Shown one piece after another: positions 36,385 through 46,568 of a stretch of 58,343 bases of DNA (positions are counted from its first letter, which is position 1; each line of letters starts with the position of its first letter). Made by a program: the position numbers and the translations under genes. The notes below the pieces were generated by a model. It was not told the DNA's origin, did no database searches, and worked only from the letters and a program-made list of their open reading frames with translations. The stretch comes from Chloroflexota bacterium. GTDB lineage: Bacteria; Chloroflexota; Dehalococcoidia; SHYD01. Location: NCBI GenBank assembly GCA_016190485.1, contig JACPQN010000024.1, forward strand, positions 1-58,343, given 5' to 3'.

Positions 36385-37482
36385 TCAATGCTCGAGCGTC
36401 GATCGAATTTGCTGGAAGGTGTTCTGCGTCCGTTCCGAAGGAAGGTAGCCCACGCTTCTCCCTCGTCCGGCGCGCACCAGCAATCCTTTGGCGATAAGCT
36501 TTGCGAAGTCCGCTACCGCAGACTGGTGCGAGCGCTTGGTAATGAAGCGGTAGATCCGATTGGAGATGTGCCCCGTGCGGCAGGCAGAAAACAGGATAGC
36601 CAACTGCCATCTCGAGAGGCCCTCGGCCTTGAACGCTTCTGCGAGACCATCGAGCTCTGCAACAAGCTCTCGTGTGTACGTGACGGCGGCCTCCGCCTCC
36701 TGTAAGTGAGCGACCGAGTAATATTCCATCCATGGCGTGACATCCTGGGGAGGAGCATAGTGTGGTCCAAGGGAAGCGGAGAGGGCGCGGTAATATCCCT
36801 GGGTGTCTCTGCCAAAGTGAGCTTCAAGAGACACCAGGTACTGTGAGCGGAACCCCCCCCTGTACATGACCAGTGCGTCGAGCACTCTGGCGGTGCGGCC
36901 GTTGCCGTCAAGAAAGGGATGAATCGCCACTAAGTTCAAGTGTGCGAGCCCCGCCTTATAGGTGGCTGGCAGTGTGTCGTCTCGATTGAGCCACTGAACG
37001 AACTCCCCCATAAGCTCGGGCACGTTCTCAGGGGGAGGGGGCAGAAACACCCTTCTTCCGGTCAGTCGGTCGACCACGTAGTTCTGTTCTGTGCGATATT
37101 GGCCCGGTCCATACGCTCCCGGAAGAGATTTGGTTACCAGGTAGTGAATTGTATGGAGGACGTCATCGGAGATGGTGAAAGCGCGCGCGCTCCACCTTTG
37201 AATATAGGAGAGCGCCTCCCGATAGTTGATGGCCTCCTGCACCTGATCCTCCGGCGCACGGATTCTCTGTCCAGACAGCAGGCTTTCGACCTGGGCTAGG
37301 GTGAGGGTGTTGCCCTCAATTCTCGTGGAGTAGTGGACAGACTGAACGAGAGCGTGCTGCCGCAGCGCTAAGGTATACTCCTCGGGCAATCGGGCATATG
37401 GATCCAGCACCGCGCGCACAGCCTCGAGCGCCTGCAGGCACTGCTCCATCGGCATTGATGGCGTGAGGTCTAAATAGAGCAC
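36385..37482 (-). CDS. Fic domain protein (class II) with C-terminal winged-helix-like region
   Basis: HPFLDGNGRTARVLDAL Fic motif; STRIEGNTL N-terminal inhibitory motif; C-terminal wHTH-like segment. Confidence 0.92.
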   Translation of the reverse strand: MLYLDLTPSMPMEQCLQALEAVRAVLDPYARLPEEYTLALRQHALVQSVHYSTRIEGNTLTLAQVESLLSGQRIRAPEDQVQEAINYREALSYIQRWSARAFTISDDVLHTIHYLVTKSLPGAYGPGQYRTEQNYVVDRLTGRRVFLPPPPENVPELMGEFVQWLNRDDTLPATYKAGLAHLNLVAIHPFLDGNGRTARVLDALVMYRGGFRSQYLVSLEAHFGRDTQGYYRALSASLGPHYAPPQDVTPWMEYYSVAHLQEAEAAVTYTRELVAELDGLAEAFKAEGLSRWQLAILFSACRTGHISNRIYRFITKRSHQSAVADFAKLIAKGLLVRAGRGRSVGYLPSERTQNTFQQIRSTLEH

Positions 37483-44196: not shown

Positions 44197-44386
44197 TGGC
44201 GGGTTGATCAACATCCGCTGATGGCGGGCGTCGCCTCACACTGCGGCGCATGCCTCAGGCTCCACTGTGGGGTAACACGCTGGTAGACGGTCTTTCCCTT
44301 GCGTTCTTGACACACCTGTGCTAGATTCCTGGCGTGGTCTCGCCGCTGATGCGCCAGCGCAGTCCCCGGTAGGCAAGGAGGTTCTC

Positions 44387-46348
44387 ATGACCCAGACGGC
44401 GTTTGCCATCCAGTCGCCCCGGGTGCTCTCCCGGGTCATCACGTCGCACCGAGACTTTGATGGCCTGTTTGAAGGCTACTCCACGCTACAGGGCGTATCC
44501 TACGTGGTTTCCCCGGATCTGCTCCTCGACTTCTTCCAGAAGCGCGGCTTTAGCCAGGTAGAGGTCGTGGTTGGAGAGAACCTGACAGGACACCACCTGC
44601 TGGACCAGTACCGCCAGTCTCTGTCGCAGAAAGGTACGGAAGTCGCGCTCGCCCTGGCCCAGCTTGTCGAGCAGGGAAAGCTCAGGGTCCTCGTGCCCAA
44701 GCGGACCTTGCACTCCAAGCTCTACCTCCTTCGCAACGAACGGAACTACCGGGTGATCCAGGCCAGCGCTAACTTCACCGAGACCGCGCGTCTGGCGACC
44801 AGCCAGGTCAACTATGCCTGGTATGCCGATCTTCCGCCGGATGATCCCTGGTTGGCCCAGGTGGTGGACGACTACCACGCCCACACGAAGGACTGCGCCC
44901 AGTTCATGGGTGATCTTGTCGAGTTGCTCAAAGGTGAGCCGAATGAGCGGCGGCAGGAGATTGCAGAGGCCTGGCTGAAGGGGAAAGTCGATGGCGAGGA
45001 GGAGTTGGAAGGGCGGAAAGTGCTCCAAGAGCTTACGGCCCGCTCCCTCACCAGCCTGGAGGAGAGCATTGAGCCGGTCCTCATACTGACCCTACCGGAC
45101 GCGCCCAAGGCCAGAAAACAGGTGGAGCGCTTCCTTGCCCCGCTGGGCCCCGAAATCACGGACCATCGCGCTTCGGTGAACGCGCTGCGCTACGTCAGAT
45201 ACGTGTGGGAGCACCACGCCGTGCCCCTGATGCAGGTGGACCTGCCGGCGCGGGCTGTCCGGCTGAGCATAGACGGCCCGGTCGCAGCGCGCTCGGAGCC
45301 GCTCCCTGATGGGGAGCATGTTAGCCAGGCACTGGAGCACATCGAAGCCTACGTCAATACGGTAGACTGGGGTCGCTGCCTCGATCCGCAGTTCGCCAAA
45401 GCCAGCATGTTCGAGGCGCTGCTCTACTTCCTTGCTGCGCCCTTCGCCCACGAGCACATGAAGCTGCGGCGCCAGAGCTACGGCCTGGTGGACTACAGAG
45501 GGCCACAGGTGCTCTACATCTTCGGCCGGGCCCAGAACGGGAAGTCCACCTTTCTGCGCTTCGCCCTCAGGCTCCTTACCGGCCAGCATGTCTCGGCCCA
45601 GCCGGGGGCCCAGTTCAGCAAGACCAAGGTGCAGGGCACCGCGGCAGTGGGCACGGTGTTTCCCCTGGTGTTCGACGACGTCGATTTCTCCCGCAACGCC
45701 AGGACCTTCGAAGAAGTCATGAAGTCCTACTGGGAGGTGTGGTGGCGGGAGGAGTGCGTGGTCCCTCAGCTTACCCTTACCGGCAATGCGGATAACCTTA
45801 AGGATTGGGCCAAATCACGACTGAAACGCGTCGACTTCGATGTCCAGTTCGCTCCCAGTGAAATAGAAAAGGCACGGCTCAACAAGATCCTCGAAGTCGA
45901 TAACCCGCTGTTCAAGTGGTTCTCTCATCTTTACATGGAAAGCTTGGCTCGAGGGGAAACTCCTGGGGAGGACGAGCTTCGCATCTCGCGCAGCGTTATG
46001 AGGGACCTCTATCGCCACGCTGGCCGGTCGGCGCCTTCCTTCTTTCCGGACCAACCCCTGGAGCGCCTGTATGATCCAGGCCGCAAAGCATGGCGAGACG
46101 TCATCCATGTCTTACGCAAGGCCGCTCCGCAGCGGCAGGGCCAGCGACTGCTGATCACTTTCAAGGAAGAGATGCAGCACAACGAGGTGCGCGCCTATGC
46201 CGGCCACCTGCCCCAGACCGTCAAAAAGGAGATCAAAGGCAAGACCATCGTCATCGAGTCGCCCGTGGAGTTTGACCGGTGGCTAAAGGGAGCCGACGGC
46301 GCATCGCAGAGCTGGCGCGATCGTCTTGGGAGACTCTTCGGCCGATGA
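44387..46348 (+). CDS. PLD-like nuclease domain fused to P-loop (SF3/D5-like) ATPase
   Basis: SD aaggagg before ATG 44387; HSKLYLLRNERNYRVIQASANFTETA (PLD HxK...SxN); GRAQNGKSTFLRFALRLLTG Walker A; LVFDDVDF Walker B; LTLTGNADNLKDWAKSRLKRVDFDVQF sensor/Arg-like. Confidence 0.8.
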   Translation: MTQTAFAIQSPRVLSRVITSHRDFDGLFEGYSTLQGVSYVVSPDLLLDFFQKRGFSQVEVVVGENLTGHHLLDQYRQSLSQKGTEVALALAQLVEQGKLRVLVPKRTLHSKLYLLRNERNYRVIQASANFTETARLATSQVNYAWYADLPPDDPWLAQVVDDYHAHTKDCAQFMGDLVELLKGEPNERRQEIAEAWLKGKVDGEEELEGRKVLQELTARSLTSLEESIEPVLILTLPDAPKARKQVERFLAPLGPEITDHRASVNALRYVRYVWEHHAVPLMQVDLPARAVRLSIDGPVAARSEPLPDGEHVSQALEHIEAYVNTVDWGRCLDPQFAKASMFEALLYFLAAPFAHEHMKLRRQSYGLVDYRGPQVLYIFGRAQNGKSTFLRFALRLLTGQHVSAQPGAQFSKTKVQGTAAVGTVFPLVFDDVDFSRNARTFEEVMKSYWEVWWREECVVPQLTLTGNADNLKDWAKSRLKRVDFDVQFAPSEIEKARLNKILEVDNPLFKWFSHLYMESLARGETPGEDELRISRSVMRDLYRHAGRSAPSFFPDQPLERLYDPGRKAWRDVIHVLRKAAPQRQGQRLLITFKEEMQHNEVRAYAGHLPQTVKKEIKGKTIVIESPVEFDRWLKGADGASQSWRDRLGRLFGR

Positions 46349-46498
46349 GCTGGTTTCAGGCCCGTTCTTCTCCACTGGTTGGAAGAAGGGCCACGACACC
46401 GGTGGCCTTCGCTCTGTTTGACACCCCCCAGGCCACGGTGCTAGCGTAGGGCCACGTTGCGACTCCCCGGTGGGGTCGCATCCGCCGAGGCGGACCCA

Positions 46499-46568
46499 GG
46501 GCTTGTCCTGAGCCTGTCGAAGGGCTTGTCCTGAGCCTGTCTGCCGACAGGCAGGCCTGTCGAAGGGA
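46499..46568. repeat. REP-like element, tandem cores
   Basis: gggcttgtcctgagcctgtcgaagggcttgtcctgagcctgtctgccgacaggcaggcctgtcgaaggg. Confidence 0.75.

Follow-up and report, generated by a model that had tools for sequence, protein, structure and literature searches.

The 58,343-nucleotide contig JACPQN010000024.1 of a Chloroflexota bacterium (Dehalococcoidia), which is the whole stretch of DNA analysed and is referred to here as the window, carries, among metabolic genes, a gene whose product joins a PLD-type nuclease to a P-loop ATPase. A preliminary description of the sequence had proposed a candidate single-gene defence effector. We find that the gene is real, with an open reading frame uninterrupted across 653 codons, and that it contains the motifs described earlier (HSK, residues 109–111; ASAN, 126–129; GRAQNGKST, 380–388; FPLVFDDV, 425–432; Asn467 and Arg478); conservation of the key residues in an alignment of 42 family sequences shows that they are not chance occurrences. 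The features are listed in Table 1.

Table 1. Positions in the window of the PLD–ATPase gene, its start signal and its predicted domains and motifs.
Feature	Positions	Strand	Details	Basis
Gene for PLD-nuclease/AAA+ (SF3-like) fusion, bacterial AgaP homologue	44387..46348	+	653 aa	full-length homologues
Ribosome-binding site AAGGAGG	44375..44381	+	perfect; ends 5 bases before ATG 44387	sequence
PLD-type nuclease domain	44426..44902	+	residues ~14-172	AF2 model; Foldseek; Pfam PLDc_2 in family members
Catalytic motif H109-S-K111 ... A-S127-A-N129	44711..44773	+	one HKD-type half-site, contiguous spacing	family alignment
C-terminal AAA+/SF3-like ATPase region	45299..46345	+	residues 305-653	separate AF2 model; Foldseek
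Walker A GRAQNGKST	45524..45550	+	residues 380-388	sequence, motif table
Walker B FPLVFDDV	45659..45682	+	residues 425-432	family alignment, motif table
Sensor-1/motif C Asn467 (TLTGN) and basic segment R478-x-K480-R481 (SRLKR)	45770..45829	+		nearly invariant columns

The gene stands alone, as had been described, with a radical SAM gene upstream and a CoA-transferase III gene downstream; no defence gene directly adjoins it, and no phage genes are seen in the neighbourhood. Its GC3 is 0.78, compared with 0.86-0.94 in the immediate neighbours. The flanks had been called repeat-rich, and a downstream repeat is indeed present, but it is not specific to the gene: the 22-23-bp element GCTTGTCCTGAGCCTGTCGAAG occurs in three dispersed copies in the window (46498-46541, 20985 and 23654), partly in tandem near the PLD–ATPase gene, and flanking repeats were for this reason rejected as a signature of mobility. 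When an empty insertion site was sought through the flanking genes of 20 relatives, the homologues proved too diverged and no shared synteny was seen. About 7 kb upstream, a Fic-domain gene (36385-37482, minus strand) matches the PADLOC SoFic model (E 8e-51); it has low GC (0.58, with GC3 of 0.68) and may also have been acquired.

The two halves of the protein are both supported by structure prediction. AlphaFold2 modelling of the full protein on the family alignment gives a mean pLDDT of 86.7 and a pTM of 0.68, and in Foldseek the N-terminal half matches SauUSI (the top structural match), NgoAVII R, Nuc (1byr, TM 0.63 by target length), NucT and BfiI, in agreement with the PLD fold proposed earlier. 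Pfam PLDc_2 is matched by 32/42 family members; with the single window protein, RE_NgoFVII falls below cut-off (E 0.26). The catalytic residues H109, K111, S127 and N129 are invariant or nearly so in the 42 sequences and are retained in each member where they can be read, while residue 126 is Ala and not Gly, the bacterial clade having [A/T]SAN throughout. Nuc, NucT, BfiI and NgoAVII R share the fold and likewise have one HxK...SxN half-site per chain, but they lack an ATPase domain, and BfiI and NgoAVII carry DNA-recognition domains.

In the C-terminal half, Walker A, Walker B and the sensor-1 Asn follow one another in AAA+ order; G380, G385, K386 and D431 are conserved across the alignment, and N467 and R478 are present in at least 90% of it. 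Residues 305-653 modelled alone reach a pLDDT of 88.2 and a pTM of 0.83. Foldseek matches the C-terminal half of the full model to SCCmec Cch, monkeypox (poxvirus) E5 and JC virus T antigen, and the 305-653 model to Cch first, followed at similar scores (TM ~0.3) by numerous AAA+ proteins outside SF3 and by the SV40/JCV T antigens. Because Cch leads but T antigens and many AAA+ proteins come next, the models make the AAA+ fold a firm prediction, whereas SF3-type is likely and the best label, though unproven over AAA+ generally; of the D5/SF3 reading made earlier, an AAA+/SF3-like fold is supported. The protein shares Walker A, Walker B, the sensor-1 Asn, the subsequent basic segment and the fold with D5/SF3 and AAA+ helicases (SCCmec Cch, poxvirus E5/D5, polyomavirus T antigen), but it has a PLD nuclease in place of a primase or origin-binding domain, and the D5-type Pfam family DUF5906 scores below cut-off (E 0.053-0.16, 13-14.6 bits against 27.6).

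This likeness to viral helicases could mean that the gene is left over from the replication module of a phage or plasmid, as a relative of D5-type primase-helicases with an added nuclease domain. We consider this very improbable: the primase domain is absent, phage genes are lacking around the window gene, and tblastn with each of three queries returned no homologue from 50,697 phage records. A search of viral contigs with the single window protein also found nothing. A prophage primase-helicase, which had been judged unlikely from the start, is rejected on the phage-record search, and no homologue in a phage replication module, a finding that the preliminary description would have counted against a defence role, appeared in the records searched.

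What, then, are the relatives of the protein? Pfam, PADLOC and PHROGs searches with the single window protein gave nothing above cut-off, and a PDB sequence search gave weak, unrelated matches only. DISARM DrmC and PADLOC PLD_Helicase were rejected as identities, the window protein being unmatched and 2-3/42 relatives matching at E 4e-4 or worse. The search for homologues of the full fusion, as had been suggested, recovered full-length relatives, including the AgaP protein of Natrinema pellirubrum (NpAgaP), to which residues 17-633 of the 653 align with 29% identity (E 2e-74); a profile of the family, of which the window sequence was a part, finds this AgaP with an E value of 8.7e-236. In the APAP systems of haloarchaea, AgaP is a PLD nuclease that works with Argonaute to destroy foreign DNA (PMC11442185). 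By sequence comparison the window gene is a full-length AgaP homologue, with the same domain order and catalytic His, Lys, Ser and Asn; it is not an APAP system, because it lacks the adjacent long-A pAgo gene and no Argonaute gene was found elsewhere in its genome. Its host is bacterial. The fusion is accordingly no orphan design; it belongs to a family of which one archaeal member has been studied by experiment.

The tested gene (NC_019963.1 121345-123498; locus L010:7947-10100) is annotated as three hypothetical fragments, although its reading frame is intact. In this open reading frame of plasmid pNATPE02, which adjoins a Piwi gene, HSK falls at residue 105 and GSPN at 157, positions that coincide with the residues mutated in the AgaP study (H105, K107, G157, S158 and N160), on which toxicity depends (PMC11442185); by position, H105, K107, S158 and N160 are the equivalents of the window catalytic residues. 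NpAgaP alone is toxic in vivo and pAgo suppresses the toxicity. Together the two proteins restrict plasmids, by way of AgaP, and enhance immunity to virus, whose propagation falls with no noticeable abortive infection (PMC11442185). The split motif HxK(x)49GSxN has been described as distinctive of AgaP (PMC11442185). It is absent from the window protein, where the motif is contiguous (K111-x15-S127) rather than interrupted by ~50 residues, and since the pAgo-linked haloarchaeal proteins at L007, L011 and L012 also lack the insert, the split is a feature of a subclade. The main text of PMC11442185 does not refer to AgaP as having an ATPase, a P-loop or a Walker motif, and our literature search found no paper joining PLD, D5 helicase and Argonaute; the AgaP nuclease has a second, ATPase half that the founding paper leaves unmentioned.

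A scan of genomes yielded 53 loci in Elusimicrobiota, Dehalococcoidia and many haloarchaea, extending a recently described archaeal immune nuclease family to two bacterial phyla. The gene is rare and patchy, being found in 4/399 Chloroflexota and 3/249 Elusimicrobiota genomes. The small bacterial clade, window gene included, forms one group in the tree (SH-aLRT 98), with the window sequence among the Elusimicrobiota rows (82), but the fine placement is unsure because the branches are long. Many archaeal homologues lie on megaplasmids: tblastn against plasmids found 23 records, 15 with at least 80% query coverage, nearly all of them haloarchaeal megaplasmids.

The two groups differ at the P-loop. 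Walker A is a canonical GK[S/T]T in every member of the bacterial clade (GKST in the window protein), and GK[S/T] is also found in more distant bacterial PLD–ATPase proteins, whereas in 57/57 haloarchaeal members examined the motif is GKG (as in NpAgaP) or GKD, with loss of the Ser/Thr, the residue that coordinates magnesium. Read from these sequences, the archaeal AAA+ part may have been kept as a binding scaffold, with targeting and energy supplied by partners, and the bacterial proteins would be energy-competent and solitary. An inactive D5-type SF3 domain, a similar case, is known in another counter-invader system (PMC10853773).

The haloarchaeal copies do have partners. A full-length pAgo adjoins 11 distinct loci, usually within ~140 bp; HerA-like ATPase genes are neighbours at 16 loci, Rad50-like at 13, NurA at 11 and Mre11-like at 10, and UvrD/PD-(D/E)XK/helicase cassettes lie beside 10-11 copies. 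The pAgo label switches at least 5-6 times across the tree, and the partners are therefore exchangeable. The HerA-like/Rad50-like/NurA/Mre11-like phosphoesterase context is mostly chromosomal (L064, L074-L079, L083, L085, L088, L090, L095, L097 and L002), and together with the AgaP homologue these genes possibly constitute an undescribed defence cassette.

The same neighbours, together with the Tdp1 structures found among the Foldseek PLD matches and the 'tyrosyl-DNA phosphodiesterase' annotations, could point instead to DNA repair or end processing, by a Tdp1-like enzyme or Mre11-Rad50 accessory whose ATPase remodels blocked ends for the PLD site to resolve. This seems to us unlikely, given the very patchy distribution, the many megaplasmid copies, the lower GC3 and the repeated gain or loss of the pAgo partnership; the tested homologue is, moreover, toxic and plasmid-restricting (PMC11442185), and the best PADLOC scores of the Rad50-like protein at L002 are with the defence models LmuB/PbeC.

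Two further proteins recur in haloarchaeal loci. A 375-aa protein encoded on the opposite strand accompanies the UvrD/PD-(D/E)XK/helicase context (L004, L008, L009, L013, L014, L015, L059 and L060; for example L009:6545-7672, minus strand). It has no Pfam match; its N-terminal region is common with haloarchaeal pAgo (E ~1e-7) and the remainder appears by eye to be DEDD-type exonuclease-like, but it is not counted as an Argonaute because its weak Piwi-profile match extends no further than the N-terminal part of the profile for pAgo. An AAA_14/DUF4143 ATPase (PADLOC PDC-S01) occurs with AgaP in 13 haloarchaeal loci, including L005:2759-4447 (minus strand), and in one Elusimicrobiota genome it lies immediately next to the gene (L050:4292-5482, minus strand).

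The bacterial copies have no conserved partner gene. No Piwi/Argonaute gene was found in the window's genome (83.6% complete) or in nine other genomes of the bacterial clade, three of the ten having a completeness of 90% or more and a contamination of 5% or less. In four bacterial kin the next gene is a type II REase-MTase pair at L043, an AlbA_2/Schlafen-like gene at L047, the AAA_14-DUF4143 gene at L050 and MNT/HepT at L051; others, the window's included, have metabolic neighbours. As a raw listing of neighbours this is suggestive of a defence association. The association proposed earlier is supported through relatives, from which we infer a defence function for the solitary bacterial form.

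Toxin-antitoxin genes also lie by bacterial copies (MNT/HepT beside L051, PIN near L052), and these, the megaplasmid location in archaea and the toxicity of NpAgaP alone (PMC11442185) would suit a toxin-like or selfish maintenance gene carried by mobile DNA, its product a harmful nuclease restrained by its own ATPase or by an unlinked antitoxin. Such a role is quite improbable, as no conserved small antitoxin partner adjoins the bacterial copies and conservation runs through the whole length of the large ATPase half.

We think it probable that the product of the window gene is a bacterial AgaP relative that works on its own, in which a PLD nuclease and an AAA+/SF3-like motor act independently of Argonaute and under the control of ATP to degrade invading DNA. 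With Argonaute absent and the motor motif intact, it may constitute a complete defence enzyme in itself; as the bacterial clade throughout has no partner and an intact ATPase motif, sensing and cutting should both fall to a single polypeptide, and since NpAgaP is toxic without Argonaute the solitary form would need some control. The AAA+ part, which would bind and probably hydrolyse ATP, could assemble on invading or replicating plasmid or viral DNA and move along or clamp it, delivering and licensing paired PLD domains to cut, the nuclease active site probably being completed by two chains. In archaea, on this reading, targeting would have passed to pAgo, to HerA/Rad50/NurA/Mre11-like genes or to UvrD-family helicase cassettes, and the P-loop would have decayed. 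That the bacterial protein is a nuclease, dimerises, is controlled by ATP and serves in defence is in each case a prediction. The abortive route entertained in the preliminary description is not favoured, because the tested member, which acts with Argonaute, showed no noticeable abortive infection (PMC11442185).

More tentatively, the bacterial protein may represent a self-sufficient AgaP whose intact AAA+ part both targets and licenses the nuclease, the archaeal APAP nucleases being derivatives that lost ATP hydrolysis on gaining external partners. The comparison of the two groups supplies a testable rule, that the P-loop is intact without partners and degenerate with them. The haloarchaeal proteins are insoluble in E. 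coli, which has prevented biochemistry (PMC11442185); the bacterial form may function in low salt and would then permit it.

Coupling of an N-terminal PLD nuclease to an ATP-driven motor in one polypeptide is also seen in the SauUSI and PbeA-type PLD(HKD)-SF2 restriction enzymes. Their motor is a two-RecA SF2 helicase, whereas that of the window protein is AAA+/SF3-like with one P-loop domain, and no modification-recognition domain was identified in it.

Other Chloroflexota genomes contain a distant family of 660-730-aa PLD–ATPase proteins (L025-L040 and L044-L046) with the motifs GKPSCGKSS, FPAVFDDI, LSMNQ and KRS, pointing to a wider PLD-AAA+ superfamily. A further distant PLD–ATPase gene (L006), on the Thermotogota plasmid pATS1 of Athalassotoga, lies beside DNA methyltransferase and helicase genes, a defence-like context.
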